The position numbers were made by a program, and so were the translations under genes. Below, in pieces: positions 9,847 through 43,837 of a stretch of 64,000 nt of DNA. Source of the stretch: a virus; IMG/VR virus record IMGVR_UViG_3300044715_001611, positions 121,657-185,656 of that record; one strand, 5' to 3'. Each line of letters opens with the position of its first letter. The stretch's first letter is position 1. The notes beneath the pieces are model-generated. The model ran no database searches. It saw nothing but the letters and a program-made list of their open reading frames with translations, and was not told the origin of the DNA.

Positions 9847-11751
9847 ATGCCTGCCGCACCCACCGCATACGGAATCAAAGGAGGGAAGATCCAGGAGATC
9901 GATTCCGAGGAAGCCGACTACGAACTGCCCCACATGGCAGCCACGTTGGACTCCCACATCAACTTGATTCCAATGCAGAATGCGGTGCAGGCTCCGCGGC
10001 TGTTCTACGGCGCACGCTTCTACAATCAGGCGCTGGCCCTGCAGAACCGGGAGACGCCGCTGGTGCAGTCCCTCATTCCCGACGACCCGGATGGTAGGAC
10101 ATTTGATGAGCATTTCGGGCCGATGGTCGGTGCATTGCATTCCAAGCATCAGGGGACGGTGGACGCTGTGGATTCCGACAGCATCACCCTCAAGACTCCG
10201 GAGGGGAAGAAGCGCATCCCGCTCTATAACACGTTCAGTTTTAATCGTAAATCCAGCCTGCATCAGACCCCCGAGGTAAAAGTCGGGGATGAAGTGACGC
10301 CTGGGCATTTGCTGGCCTCCTCCAATTACACCGACAAGAAAGGCGCGTTGGCTCTCGGACTCAATGCCCGAGTCGGTTTCGTTCCCTACAAGGGATGGTC
10401 CATGGACGATGCCGTGGTCATCTCGCAGGCATTTGCCGATCGGCTCAAATCCGAGAAGCAATTGACGCACGCGCAGGAGTTCGACGATGACACCAAAGGC
10501 GGACTCCATCATTTCGTCAGCCTGTTTCCGACGGCATTTGAAAAGGCCAAGCTGGCGAACATGGACGAGCATGGCGTCATCAAAAAGGGCAGCATCATCA
10601 AGGAGGGAGACCCGATGATTCTAGCCACTGCTCCAAAGGTGGTGACGGCCCGCGATGCGCAGGTGGGCAAACTCTCACGCACGCTTCAGCAGACCCGACG
10701 CAATGCCACGCAGCTTTGGGATCACCAGGATCCTGGTGAAGTCATCGACGTGGCACGCACCTCGAAGGGGGTGAAGGTGGTGGTGAAATCCATAAGCGCC
10801 ACGCGAGTAGGGGACAAGATTGTAACGCGAAACGGACAAAAGGACATCGTGTCGCGCATCATTCCAAACGAGCACATGCCGCGTACGCTGGACGGTGAGC
10901 CGCTGGAGGTGTTGATGAATCCTCTCAGTGTTCCGAGTCGCGTGAACAACAATTTCATCTACGAGACGCTGCTGGGCAAAATCGCAAGGAAGAGCGGGCA
11001 GCCCTACCGCCTGCGCGGCTTCAATGGTCCCGGCGAGAAGTATCACGAGTTCGTCGAAGCTGAGTTGGCGAAACACGGACTCCAATCCACCGACGAGGTG
11101 TTTGACCCGCAATCCAATAGGAAATTGCAGCGTCCAATTACCACGGGTGTGGCTCATTTCTTCAAGCTGCACCATGAATCCGAATCGAAATCGTCTGCGC
11201 GAGGCATTTCCGGATATGACGCGAATCAACAACCGAGCCGCGGTGCTGGGGAGTCTGCCCAAAGTAAAAGACTCTCGGGGTTAGAGGTCGGAAGTCTGCT
11301 GTCATCGGGAGCATACGCAAATCTCAAAGAAGCCTCCACCCTACGCGGACAGCAGAACGATCAATACTGGCGGGAGGTCCGCCTGGGTCACAAACCTCCA
11401 ATGCCCGGTGAGCCATTTGTCTGGCATAAATTCAAAACGCTATTGAACGGCGCCGGTCTTCACGCAAAGGATATCGGCGGTGGAAAATTGCGACTTGGGG
11501 CGTTCACGGACAAAGCCCTTGCTGCGCATGACCCGAAGGAGATAGCCCACGGAGGCACAGTCAATCTCGCAACCCTCGAAGAAGAGCCCGGCGGATTGTT
11601 CGACCCCAGCCTGATTGGCAATAATCGGTGGGGAAAAATAAGCCTGCATCAGCCAATGCCGCTACCCTCCATGGAATCCAGCCTGAGAACTTTGTTGTCG
11701 CTCACAAAAAAAGAATTCGAGGAAGTTCTTAGCGGAAAAAGAAACTTGTAA
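9847..11751 (+). CDS. RNA polymerase: beta C-terminal part fused to start of beta-prime
   Basis: A 634-aa phage multisubunit RNA polymerase protein. Recognisable beta segments in order: fork-loop region NLIPMQNAVQAPRLFYGARF at 39-58; ALALGLNARVGFVPYKGWS then MDDAVVISQ at 167-194; GDKIVTRNGQKDIVSRI at 322-338 with the two active-site lysines (K324, K332) spaced as in E. coli K1065/K1073; DGEPLEVLMNPLSVPSRVN at 349-367; HFFKLHHESESKSSARG at 437-453; LSGLEVGSLLSSGAYANLKE near 477-495. Residues about 580-630 (GGLFDPSLIG, WGKISLHQP, LRTLLSLTKKEFEEVL) match the N-terminal stretch of beta-prime, not beta. The beta N-terminal half is absent from the window. The ORF stops in the beta-prime N-terminus, just before an HNH gene. 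Confidence 0.93.
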   Translation: MPAAPTAYGIKGGKIQEIDSEEADYELPHMAATLDSHINLIPMQNAVQAPRLFYGARFYNQALALQNRETPLVQSLIPDDPDGRTFDEHFGPMVGALHSKHQGTVDAVDSDSITLKTPEGKKRIPLYNTFSFNRKSSLHQTPEVKVGDEVTPGHLLASSNYTDKKGALALGLNARVGFVPYKGWSMDDAVVISQAFADRLKSEKQLTHAQEFDDDTKGGLHHFVSLFPTAFEKAKLANMDEHGVIKKGSIIKEGDPMILATAPKVVTARDAQVGKLSRTLQQTRRNATQLWDHQDPGEVIDVARTSKGVKVVVKSISATRVGDKIVTRNGQKDIVSRIIPNEHMPRTLDGEPLEVLMNPLSVPSRVNNNFIYETLLGKIARKSGQPYRLRGFNGPGEKYHEFVEAELAKHGLQSTDEVFDPQSNRKLQRPITTGVAHFFKLHHESESKSSARGISGYDANQQPSRGAGESAQSKRLSGLEVGSLLSSGAYANLKEASTLRGQQNDQYWREVRLGHKPPMPGEPFVWHKFKTLLNGAGLHAKDIGGGKLRLGAFTDKALAAHDPKEIAHGGTVNLATLEEEPGGLFDPSLIGNNRWGKISLHQPMPLPSMESSLRTLLSLTKKEFEEVLSGKRNL

Positions 11752-11776: not shown

Positions 11777-11938
11777 ATGAGTGAACACATTAAAAATGAA
11801 TCCGCAGTCGCGCTTGGACGCCTTGGGGGAAAAGCGCGTTCAGCTAAAAAAACAATTAGCAGCCGTGCGAATGGAAGCGCTCCGTGCCGTCCAGGAAAGC
11901 GGAGGGGTAGGCCCTGTGGACCTGCTCGGGAGACCTAA
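11777..11938 (+). CDS. Small basic protein (53 aa) overlapping the HNH gene
   Basis: ATGAGTGAA start in the genome's favoured context. The product contains SAVALGRLGGKARSAKKTIS then SRANG and RRGRPC, the layout of a common small bacterial/phage family (ALG..GG.AR..K..SSRANG..GGRP). It lies out of frame over the first 140 bases of the HNH gene, so one of the two starts may be misassigned, or the region is genuinely dual-coding. Confidence 0.55.
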   Translation: MSEHIKNESAVALGRLGGKARSAKKTISSRANGSAPCRPGKRRGRPCGPARET

Positions 11939-12782
11939 AAACATAAACAACGAGGCGGCGCTTTTGATTTTGCGCCAATTGGACGGCATCAAGCAGGCTA
12001 TGTTTGCGCAGCGTCTCCGTAGGGATAATTACCCGGAGTATCTAAGGAAGAAACGCGAGCATTACGCCCGAAAGAAATCAGCGGTTCTGGCTTCGCAAAA
12101 GCGCAGGTACGAGAGAGACAAGCCTGCCATACTGGAGAAAATGAGAGTGAAAGGAAAAATCAAGAGAGCCCAGGTCAGCGCAGACCCTAAAGTGATCGCA
12201 CAAAGGAAAAAGCGCATACAGGAACTAGGACCAAGCAGGGCGAAACGCATGCGAGAATTTTGTGAGAAGTGGTGGGAGGGTCATGTCTCCGTGAGGACCC
12301 CAGAGCGGGTGCGGGAGTATAACCGACGGTATTACGCAAAGCCCGGAAAGGCAGAGGAACGGCACAAATATCAGCAGGGGTATAGGCGAAGTGAGGAAGG
12401 CCGGAAAAAGAGGAGATTGCGCGAGAAAGCACACCGGGAGGATAATCCGCATTTCAAAATCAGGGTGGCTCTTAAAAGTCGGCTTTACGGCGCGCTTAAA
12501 TCCAAAGGAATTCGCAAAACCATCGCGACCATGAAACTGGCTGGTTGTTCCCTAGAATTTCTGAAGCAGCATTTGGAATCTCAATTTTTACAAGGCATGT
12601 CATGGGATAATTACGGCGAGTGGCATATCGACCACAAAATTCCCTGTAAAGCTTTCGACCTGACAGACTCCGAAGAACAAAAGCGTTGCTTCCATTACAA
12701 AAATTTACAGCCGCTCTGGGCAATTGATAATCTGCGCAAGAACGCAAAGATCCTCCCAGAGTTTGCCCAACTGCTCCCGTAG
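11796..12782 (+). CDS. HNH homing-endonuclease-like protein
   Basis: About 328 aa, extremely Lys/Arg-rich. The N-terminal 200 residues are repeats of basic helices (REHYARKK, KRRYERDK, REYNRRYYAK, EERHKYQQGYRR) typical of DNA-reading arms. The C-terminal nuclease core reads WHIDHKIPCKAFDL, then HYKNLQPLWAIDNLRKNAK, giving the H-DH-N-H/N pattern of free-standing phage HNH endonucleases. ATG 11796 was chosen over a GTG 15 bases upstream. It sits directly after the truncated beta/beta-prime gene, which suggests it moved in there. GC and codon use look slightly more A-rich than its neighbours. Confidence 0.85.
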   Translation: MNPQSRLDALGEKRVQLKKQLAAVRMEALRAVQESGGVGPVDLLGRPKNINNEAALLILRQLDGIKQAMFAQRLRRDNYPEYLRKKREHYARKKSAVLASQKRRYERDKPAILEKMRVKGKIKRAQVSADPKVIAQRKKRIQELGPSRAKRMREFCEKWWEGHVSVRTPERVREYNRRYYAKPGKAEERHKYQQGYRRSEEGRKKRRLREKAHREDNPHFKIRVALKSRLYGALKSKGIRKTIATMKLAGCSLEFLKQHLESQFLQGMSWDNYGEWHIDHKIPCKAFDLTDSEEQKRCFHYKNLQPLWAIDNLRKNAKILPEFAQLLP

Positions 12783-40450: not shown

Positions 40451-43400
40451 ATGTCCGACCATGAGGATCTACCAAAGCTCAAAAAGGCGAAGTCGTTTTC
40501 TGACGACGCCAATTGGCATGAAAAGCATGTACTTCTCCGAAGCATGCTCGCCGAACACCCGGACCGCTGGGAGGTGGACCAGGATGACGGGCACCAGCAT
40601 GCTGTCGGGATTCGGCACGAATCGGGATTCAAATTCCATCTGCCACGGGAGCAGGTGGTCGGGCCGGCGACGCCTCCCGCTGAGAAGTCCGCCATGTCCC
40701 TGATGCCCTCGCTTTCCGATATGGCAACCAGCCGCCTGCTGAAGGCGATCTCCGCGGATCAGGTAAAGCTGGGGCCGGATGGAGAGATCATCGTAGCACC
40801 CGAGGAAGAAGCCCCGCTGACACCGGAAGAGCAGGCGCAGGAGGATATGACCGCCATTTCTGAGCAGGTGGCGGCGATGCAACGGCAGCGGAAGGCCGCG
40901 CGTCCTGCTTATTACGATCCCAGGGATTGGACTGCCCAAGTAGCCAGCGCATTGGGATTGCCCGATGATGGCAAATACCACCCACGCACCGTCAAATCCG
41001 CAGGCAGCAAATGTCCCAATTGCCATACGACGGAGGGGTATTTGAAACTGGCTGGCGAGGCGATCATCTGCAGGGAATGCAACCGGCGCTCGGATACCAC
41101 GGAATGGGAGGAGGCAAATCTGAAGACATCTGGCGGCGAAAAAAAAGCATCCACCGAGGCAAAGCCCGCCCCGCTCACCGGCCCCGAGGGCATCAAGGCA
41201 AAGCTCGCCTCCCTCGACCTGGAGGCTCTCGCCGCCGAGCAGCATGCCTACATCAAATCAGGCAAGGTCTCCAAGCGCGACAAGGCCGTCAAAATCCTCA
41301 ACATCATCGAGGGTCTCAAGCGCAACAAGGTGAAGCCGGAGGAATTGATGATTCACGCCGTGCCAGTCATCCCGGCAGTGTATCGCCCATTTGCAATGGC
41401 GGGTGGCACGTTCATCCCCGGCGACGCCAATGAACTCTACAAGGACCTGTTCACGTTCCAGAAGCTGCACCGGGAGACTCACAAAGAATTGGGACCGGAG
41501 GCAGGCAATGAGGCCGGCCTGCAGGTTTACAATGCGGTGAAGGCGCTTTACGGATATGGGGAGCCGGTGAATCCAAAGACGGCTTCTCGCGGAGTGACTG
41601 GGTTCTTCAAATCACTGGTGGGCACTTCGCCCAAATACAGCTTCTACCAGCGGGCGCTCATTTCGAAACCGATGGATAATATTTCTAGATCGACGGCCAG
41701 CGTGAATCCGGATCTGGGAGTTGACGAAGTCGGATTGCCTGATGACCATGCTTGGAAGGGCTTTGCTCCTTATGTGCAAGCGCGATTGGTCGGGCTGGGC
41801 TATGCACCCGGCGACGCTGTAAAAGCCATTCGCGATCGGACGCCTTACGCATTGCAGGCTTTACAGAAAGAGATGGAAGTGCGGCCCGTGATTATTTCAA
41901 GGGCACCGGCGTGGCACAAATTCAATGCTGTAGCACAGCGTGCGCGTATGGTGAAAGGGGACTCCATCCAGGCCAATCCATTTGTTACGACGGGAATGAA
42001 CCTAGACTTCGATGGAAATTGCGTCAAAGTCGGCACAAAGATAATGGTTGCATGGCATCCAGATACATGTTCATCCGCGCGCCTAATGAAACACGCCAAT
42101 ACACAAATCAGACTCAACACCAAGGACACCTACGTCGCGTGCATCCCAATTGAGGATTTCCCGCATCTCAAGGGCACCGCAAAGAAGGATCGCAACGGGG
42201 CGGATGTTTATGAGGTGCCTGCTGGGCTCAAGGTGCTAAGCCCGGTAGAGGGCAAAGGAATGCAATGGTGTGATGTCACGCACTTCACCCACGAGAAGGA
42301 CACGCCCTGCATGGATGTCGTTTGCGTCACCGGGCATTCCGTGACGGTCTCAGCCAATGAATCCATTGCCGCCTTCAATTCGGAGACCGGGCTGCTGGAG
42401 AAGATCAAACCCGCAGATGCCGTGGGCCGTCTCGTTCCGCTGTCTCGGTCTGCCGCGCTTCCCAAGACGACCATGCGCGTGTCCGACAATCCCTACGAAT
42501 TCGGTTGGCTGCTCGGTGCCTTCCTTTCGGATGGCTGGATTGATGAGAACGGGATGGTGGGCTACACCAAGTCCAATGCGGAACACCGCATTCGGTTTGC
42601 GGCGGCCTGCTCTTCATACCTCGGGGACACGGAAGCCGCATTCCTGCGCATCCAGAATTACGCGGAGACGCATGGTGCGGACAATCACAGCGGGATTTGC
42701 GGGGACAGTTCGAAGATTCACATCCGCCTGTTGAAAGAACACGCAGCAAAAGCTCCTCGGTATGCGCAGCTTCAGGGTATTTTCCGGGACTGCTACGACC
42801 CTGCCAAATTGGAACGTGATTTGACCACAGAGCGTTCCTGCCTCTACAAGCGGCTGCCGCAAATCACATGGGCACTTCCAATTGAAGCACTGTATGGGCT
42901 GCTGGCCGGGCTGTTTGACGGAGACGGTAGCATTTCCAGTTCCGAGAAACCCGGACGCAAACACCCGGCGTTTACATGCAATCTGGCGACCTCATCTCCG
43001 CATCTGCGGGACTCCGTGATGGCGCTGGCCCAATTTCTCGGCATTCGCTGCAGCTCCACAGCGCAGGAGCCGAAGAAAGGGCGTGCGCAGACTCATACGA
43101 GTTATGTGGTGAATTTCTCGGTGATCGATATCCGACGAATTGCCCCGTGGTTACAACTCACCAAAGCCAATGCCGCGGCGACCTTGGCGCATTTGCGGTC
43201 CGTGCCGGATATGCAGGACACGCGAGATGTTGTGCCTGTGCTGAAGGCGGAGCTGGAGGAATTACGAAAGAACAAGGACTTGCCCTGTCGTAATTCCATA
43301 ACGCAAACGATTTCGAAACTCAAACATACCATCGCCCCTGTGGTCAGTCGTCAATGGGTGTTTGCGCTGCCGGAGGCGGATTTGAATCGGGTGCCGGCCT

Positions 43401-43837
43401 TGCGGCAACGCGCTGAGACCACCTCAGTGCTCTGGACTACAATTGAGTCTGCGACACCAGCAGGGAAGCATGACGTGTATGACCTTGCAGTGCCCGAGAC
43501 GAAGGTCTTCGCAATTGCCAACGGGTTGGTGGTGTTCGACACCATGAACGCCCATGTGGTTGCGAGCCCGGAAGCAGTCAAAGAGGCCTACGACAAATTG
43601 CTCCCCAGCAAGATGGTCTTTGGGATCCGTGACCCTGATGCCGTAATCAACAATTTGAAGCACGAGCAAATCCTCGGGTCGTATGCTGCAAGCCAGCGCC
43701 CTTCGCAGAAACAATGGAAGTTCGGCTCAAAGGACGAGGCCATCAGCGCATTAAAGAACGGCACCGTACCCCTGCATGATGACGTGACATTTCCAGGCAG
43801 CGAGAAACTCGGCACGCCTTTGCATGTCGAGGTGTAA
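40451..43837 (+). CDS. RNA polymerase beta-prime N-terminal core with intein
   Basis: 1128 aa before splicing, 621 after. Residues 1-240 are phage-specific with a zinc ribbon (CPNC, then CREC, about 187-210). From about 244 it follows beta-prime: GPEGIKAKLASLDLEALAAE; VIPAVYRPFAMAGGTFIPGD, then ANELYKDL (lid/rudder segment, about 306-335); FYQRALISKPMDNISRS; VRPVIISRAPAWHKFNAVAQ; MNLDFDGN at 516-523, the catalytic Mg2+ loop. The intein interrupts at Cys524, and beta-prime resumes with TMNAHVVAS at 1031. The spliced loop reads DFDGN-TM rather than DFDGD-QM/EM: the third catalytic Asp is Asn. The protein ends about 97 residues later, so bridge helix and trigger loop must come from another gene. 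Confidence 0.93.
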   Translation: MSDHEDLPKLKKAKSFSDDANWHEKHVLLRSMLAEHPDRWEVDQDDGHQHAVGIRHESGFKFHLPREQVVGPATPPAEKSAMSLMPSLSDMATSRLLKAISADQVKLGPDGEIIVAPEEEAPLTPEEQAQEDMTAISEQVAAMQRQRKAARPAYYDPRDWTAQVASALGLPDDGKYHPRTVKSAGSKCPNCHTTEGYLKLAGEAIICRECNRRSDTTEWEEANLKTSGGEKKASTEAKPAPLTGPEGIKAKLASLDLEALAAEQHAYIKSGKVSKRDKAVKILNIIEGLKRNKVKPEELMIHAVPVIPAVYRPFAMAGGTFIPGDANELYKDLFTFQKLHRETHKELGPEAGNEAGLQVYNAVKALYGYGEPVNPKTASRGVTGFFKSLVGTSPKYSFYQRALISKPMDNISRSTASVNPDLGVDEVGLPDDHAWKGFAPYVQARLVGLGYAPGDAVKAIRDRTPYALQALQKEMEVRPVIISRAPAWHKFNAVAQRARMVKGDSIQANPFVTTGMNLDFDGNCVKVGTKIMVAWHPDTCSSARLMKHANTQIRLNTKDTYVACIPIEDFPHLKGTAKKDRNGADVYEVPAGLKVLSPVEGKGMQWCDVTHFTHEKDTPCMDVVCVTGHSVTVSANESIAAFNSETGLLEKIKPADAVGRLVPLSRSAALPKTTMRVSDNPYEFGWLLGAFLSDGWIDENGMVGYTKSNAEHRIRFAAACSSYLGDTEAAFLRIQNYAETHGADNHSGICGDSSKIHIRLLKEHAAKAPRYAQLQGIFRDCYDPAKLERDLTTERSCLYKRLPQITWALPIEALYGLLAGLFDGDGSISSSEKPGRKHPAFTCNLATSSPHLRDSVMALAQFLGIRCSSTAQEPKKGRAQTHTSYVVNFSVIDIRRIAPWLQLTKANAAATLAHLRSVPDMQDTRDVVPVLKAELEELRKNKDLPCRNSITQTISKLKHTIAPVVSRQWVFALPEADLNRVPALRQRAETTSVLWTTIESATPAGKHDVYDLAVPETKVFAIANGLVVFDTMNAHVVASPEAVKEAYDKLLPSKMVFGIRDPDAVINNLKHEQILGSYAASQRPSQKQWKFGSKDEAISALKNGTVPLHDDVTFPGSEKLGTPLHVEV
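42020..43540 (+). mobile_element. LAGLIDADG intein in the RNA polymerase active-site loop
   Basis: A 507-aa intein (residues 524-1030). The N-terminal splice block is CVKVGTKIMVAW with Cys1. A block-B-like VCVTGHSVTVSANESI lies downstream. Two LAGLIDADG motifs, WLLGAFLSDGWID and LYGLLAGLFDGDGSIS, mark a homing endonuclease domain. The C-terminal block is AIANGLVVFD followed by Thr+1. The usual His-Asn ending is replaced by Phe-Asp, so splicing chemistry may be atypical. Boundaries are set by alignment to the uninterrupted DFDGD-M-H motif. Confidence 0.88.

Follow-up and report, generated by a model that had tools for sequence, protein, structure and literature searches.

The 64,000-nucleotide stretch of DNA analyzed here, referred to as the window, runs from base 121657 to base 185656 of a virus contig 185,656 bases long (IMG/VR record IMGVR_UViG_3300044715_001611) and contains a 634-amino-acid open reading frame (ORF) that joins the C-terminal part of the RNA polymerase beta subunit to the N-terminus of beta-prime. 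We consider it likely that a single-chain, virion-type polymerase has been split repeatedly in this lineage at linkers that tolerate insertions and comes together again non-covalently, and that the HNH endonuclease gene beside one of the breaks is incidental. The ORF and its beta-prime segment are located as follows.

9847..11751, plus strand: RNA polymerase fragment ORF of 634 amino acids, the C-terminal part of beta followed by the first ~77 residues of beta-prime.
11512..11748, plus strand: beta-prime N-terminal segment within this ORF, corresponding to beta-prime residues ~20 to ~130-155, without the zinc ribbon.

Residues 99-466 of the ORF match the Pfam family RNA_pol_Rpb2_6 (E=6e-54), and a 60-sequence profile of its family matches cellular beta chains with E=2.5e-111. 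An AlphaFold2 model (mean pLDDT 87) aligns over residues 1 to ~548 to bacterial and plastid beta chains with Z of about 33-37, and in several of these chains the alignment reaches or nears the beta C-terminus. This bears out, for beta, the structural comparison with the bacterial enzyme proposed in a preliminary description of this DNA; the list of structural alignments covers model residues 1-548 only, and the placement of the tail rests on sequence profiles instead of coordinates. A profile built from the final 79 residues of the ORF and of 17 relatives split in the same way aligns to beta-prime residues 20-51 (best E=7e-5), and all 60 of the 60 PDB matches listed are beta-prime or the homologous gamma chains of cyanobacteria. 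A later motif of the tail, LLSLTKKEFEEVL (equivalent LLDLSATELEQVL), is in register with beta-prime and is not significant alone. Furthermore, a junction-spanning profile of 40 unsplit relatives matches beta-prime with E=4e-30, and Pfam RNA_pol_Rpb1_1 matches 38 of these 40 sequences. A fold search of BFVD returned giant-virus and phage RNA polymerases and nothing closer. These results confirm that the ORF joins the end of beta to the start of beta-prime, with the boundary near residue 550-560. The preliminary description had given the first 570 residues to beta and the last 50 to beta-prime; both identities stand, while beta is now seen to end at about residue 550 and the beta-prime tail to be longer, extending from ~560 to 634.

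Relatives in which the junction is unbroken confirm an ancestral beta/beta-prime fusion, which the preliminary description had anticipated. Two scans of viral contigs returned up to 80 loci each, with alignments as queries in place of a single-protein query that found one relative; in the 128 distinct relatives compared, pieces were mapped by hidden Markov models. Forty-nine of these encode beta through the beta-prime C-terminal part in one chain, 54 have beta and the beta-prime N-terminal part in one ORF with the rest separate, and 25 are split or partial. The beta/beta-prime junction itself is intact within one ORF in 108, cut in 19, and assigned to neither state in one. Unsplit fused homologues include gp206 of the Salmonella phage Arash and D69_0261 of Vibrio phage D69.

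On a tree of the 128 relatives, the cut members form two groups, the window's own clade of 14 (13 of them cut) and a clade of six beside Arash and D69. Three state changes of the junction are needed both on this tree and on a repeat with a mixture model on 52 rows. Because the two cut groups occupy different parts of the trees, the simplest reading of these sequences is that at least two separate cuts occurred at the same site. Within the six-member clade, the halves in L033/L035 lie 38 bp apart with nothing between them, and across split relatives the halves are between 0.6 kb and more than 60 kb apart. Twelve further lineages of the window's clade, from different samples, share the ORF end at 11751. 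This recurrence refutes an assembly error, a frameshift or a decaying pseudogene as the source of the break, a suspicion that the metagenomic nature of the contig would otherwise encourage: both frames are moreover open and conserved, and each piece occurs once in the contig.

The preliminary description had placed the restart of beta-prime 29 kb away at 40451. An ORF at 40451-43837 does carry the next part of beta-prime, and homology resumes at 41174, behind a 240-amino-acid extension in which no Pfam match exceeds the cut-off. The ORF is organized as follows.

40451..41170, plus strand: N-terminal extension of 240 amino acids with a CxxC...CxxC zinc-ribbon-like segment, recognized from sequence.
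41174..42019, plus strand: middle part of beta-prime up to the active-site motif DFDGN (tblastn with Arash gp206 residues 1146-1442, E=2e-34; Pfam Rpb1_1/Rpb1_2).
42020..43540, plus strand: intein of 507 amino acids with a LAGLIDADG endonuclease at the active-site motif (Pfam LAGLIDADG_3 and Hom_end; junctions).
43541..43834, plus strand: beta-prime C-extein, the ORF stopping after the active-site domain (tblastn with Arash gp206 residues 1438-1516).

The third catalytic aspartate, directly before the active-site intein, is replaced by asparagine (DFDGN; window 42005-42025 and 43535-43545). The same motif is found in L051 and L117, whose inteins are the closest to that of the window (E about 1e-52; others 1e-20 or weaker), and the change from aspartate to asparagine thus appears to travel with one intein lineage. 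In another relative (L131/L132:5273-13107) the beta-prime gene is broken inside the active-site intein into two ORFs with 57 bp between them, which may reflect either a split intein or a frameshift.

With Arash gp206 and gp216 and their D69 homologues as tblastn probes, all polymerase parts were located in the contig, each of them once. The enzyme is encoded in at least five ORFs with two inteins. The parts beyond those already described are listed here.

Contig ~103 kb (about 103-107 kb, outside the window; L011:7974-12179): first beta-N part, in a 1401-amino-acid ORF.
Next ORF, overlapping the 1401-amino-acid ORF: second beta-N part (Pfam Rpb2_3).
Contig 1.7-4.8 kb (L006:1698-4754): beta-prime C-terminal part with the second intein (LAGLIDADG and Hint matches).

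The junctions of the second intein read NVKH|C and VKN|T, and an ORF for a GIY-YIG endonuclease (L006:4751-5905) overlaps the stop codon of this beta-prime gene. No match to RNA_pol_L, indicative of an alpha subunit, was found in the contig or in 10 relatives, and the contig contains a match to sigma region 2 (Sigma70_r2, E=5e-9). A separate clade of relatives (L021-L027, L060, L083, L168) has a break between beta-N and beta-C at nearly the position seen in the window phage, and in several of its members the beta-N piece is on the opposite strand.

The cuts coincide with the alignment columns of lowest conservation (smoothed conservation percentile 0 to 0.24). In the beta-prime chains of Thermus, Mycobacterium and Streptomyces, PDB numbering reveals a large insertion at the cut site or shortly ahead of it, so that this site is known to tolerate disruption. 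An origin of the split as the scar of a lost intron or intein, in which mobility was followed by deletion and rearrangement, has been proposed for phiKZ-type phages (PMC7598289), and the family of the window phage is rich in inteins, with 61 insert-like gaps that are mostly inteins. These inserts, however, favor conserved columns (mean conservation percentile 0.76), the opposite of the splits. At gathering level, Rfam gives no match in the window, L002 or L017, with only sub-threshold, unrelated matches around both ends of the break, although survivor bias could hide scars; that no intron or intein was recognized exactly at the junction among the 128 relatives weighs weakly against such a scar. 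Overall, we regard a lost intron or intein as quite improbable.

Split inteins accompanied by free-standing endonucleases are known from phage metagenomes, and a split intein, or else a split, trans-splicing group I intron, might accordingly reunite the halves once they are expressed. This idea is largely refuted by the ends of the pieces: the 634-amino-acid ORF stops within a few residues of the end of homology and has no intein N-part, the beta-prime extension contains no intein C-part, and no Rfam intron lies on either side of the break.

A further candidate cause is the endonuclease gene immediately downstream of the split.

11781..12782, plus strand: free-standing HNH/endonuclease VII-like gene (phrog_1035, E=2e-6; phrog_28061, E=2e-9; motif WHIDHKIP...FHYKNLQPLW), without a Pfam match.

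Its presence at the break point had been correctly recognized in the preliminary description, which went on to suggest an endonuclease-linked rearrangement as the origin of the split. In such a history, an HNH homing endonuclease would have invaded the fused gene and broken it in two, rearrangements would have parted the halves, and most descendants would have lost the endonuclease. The gene starts 29 bp behind the split end of the 634-amino-acid ORF, and there is a precedent in T4-like phages, where MobE splits nrdA of phage Aeh1 (PMC2988022). Two relatives give some hint of such a history: the only match to the window HNH in 15 relative records is a 27-residue piece in G001 that resembles its C-terminus, with one stop, directly upstream of the beta-prime middle gene, and in G014 an unrelated HNH gene lies 288 bp behind the beta piece.

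We nonetheless find this explanation unlikely. Relatives were searched with the window HNH, Pfam HNH and phrog_1035, together with PHROG scans of nine neighboring ORFs, and no full homologue of the window HNH was found in 15 relative records. G002-G010 and G013 share the ORF end of the window phage and have no recognizable HNH or other nuclease adjoining it, an outcome that the preliminary description had itself named as refuting its proposal. The second, six-member clade is cut at the same site and the window HNH gene is not present there. The HNH gene, moreover, adjoins only one of the two halves, and HNH genes are found in many relative genomes, typically zero to three in each. Because the GIY-YIG gene of the same contig follows a natural beta-prime terminus, an adjoining endonuclease is no mark of a break. 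The HNH gene is therefore probably not the cause of the cut and instead a later or incidental neighbor, although an ancient endonuclease event could conceivably lie behind the split.

Repeated splitting at tolerant linkers accounts for these observations by the following route. The window phage would encode a complete RNA polymerase of the multi-subunit type, descended from a fused beta/beta-prime chain that was probably carried in the virion, as in Arash. The cuts in this lineage fall within beta-N, between beta-N and beta-C, in the beta-prime clamp ~77 residues in, and after the beta-prime active-site domain. A stop and a restart in a tolerant linker would be the simplest path to each cut, and the 38 bp gap of L033/L035 resembles what could be an early stage; the pieces would then have drifted apart in the genome. 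In the window phage, the two inteins would splice out and the five proteins would most likely reassemble non-covalently into one core with no alpha subunits, which may be packaged in the virion.

Several points weigh against this reading. The window phage is known here from its sequence alone, the contig may be incomplete, and activity is not assured with DFDGN in place of DFDGD at the active site. In addition, G011/L102 alone in the window's clade keeps the gene whole, with an insert of ~200 amino acids at the junction; given this member, the clade could have split once and rejoined once, or have split several times. This insert (in L102:7424-11098) lies exactly at the junction and has no matches.

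Some of the pieces carry additional domains. The 1401-amino-acid beta-N ORF also encodes an Acb1-like anti-CBASS domain (PF23474, 3.5e-6) and DUF6624 (4e-12). Among split relatives, the freed N-terminus of the beta-prime piece is fused to NUDIX, inorganic pyrophosphatase (7.6e-38), HAD-like (on our reading) and zinc-ribbon domains (L104, L096, L100, L137). From these two sets of fusions we draw the speculative and rather doubtful idea that cutting is adaptive, in that the new protein ends of a virion-packaged enzyme anchor co-injected payloads and the pieces double as carriers for anti-defense or takeover functions. If this were true, pieces of the polymerase would bring such enzymes into the host along with the polymerase itself.

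Our findings address the broader question of how the pieces of phage RNA polymerases originate, because one tree accommodates single-chain and fused members together with partly and fully split ones. This allows fission events in the family to be counted and dated, and to be set against mobile elements; the same cut is seen in two separate groups, in linkers that are not conserved and that lie apart from the intein sites. The family also supplies single-chain beta/beta-prime enzymes and their natural split versions for biochemistry.

Recognizable cellular-type beta and beta-prime, as in the window phage, have been described in IMG/VR phages as mReC Caudovirales (Weinheimer and Aylward 2020, PMC7481178); for these, the main text of that study mentions neither fusions nor splits nor inteins. 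A literature search for fused RpoB-RpoC in phages found none that was relevant. Fused or recurrently cut members of this lineage are thus undescribed in the literature searched, and the family could be the same as mReC or a distinct one.

A normally single protein in pieces with an adjoining HNH gene is also seen in Aeh1 nrdA/mobE and similar systems (PMC2988022). There, the endonuclease lies between the halves, whereas the halves in the window phage are 29 kb apart. As in a gene split by homing, unsplit homologues without the endonuclease exist (108/128), but the split is not confined to genes with an inserted endonuclease, as relatives are split without one.

The phiKZ/AR9 enzymes, vRNAP (five pieces) and nvRNAP (four pieces), resemble that of the window phage in having beta and beta-prime in separate pieces and no alpha, and AR9 nvRNAP shows that a split, alpha-less enzyme can be active (PMC7598289). 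Their beta-prime likewise ends after the active-site domain, a split shared with cyanobacteria, and proposals for the origin of split phage RNA polymerases include the loss of introns and an ancestry in cyanobacteria (PMC7598289). Yet the division differs, as the preliminary description had rightly noted: the phiKZ/AR9 pieces are N-beta, C-beta, N-beta-prime, (Mid) and C-beta-prime, while one ORF of the window phage runs from the C-terminal part of beta into the N-terminus of beta-prime. Unlike phiKZ/AR9, the window phage shows a close sequence match to cellular beta and has unsplit relatives, and its contig encodes a sigma-like protein where phiKZ/AR9 have no recognizable sigma.

Arash (gp206 and gp216) and D69 are homologous to the window phage along the whole length of the enzyme, with ~32% identity over the 634-amino-acid ORF and full-length matches to gp206 and gp216 by tblastn. 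In purified Arash virions, the fused gp206 ranked first among all proteins by spectrum count, and gp216 and a sigma factor were also detected, although the authors consider carry-over from abundant expression a possible explanation of this signal (PMC10585845). In Arash and D69, beta and the N-terminal half of beta-prime form one chain and the C-terminal half of beta-prime is separate, as it also is in the window phage. The junction that is intact in Arash is broken in the window phage at 11751, and the chain is broken again in beta-N; altogether, the fused part has three additional breaks in the window phage, which also carries two inteins.
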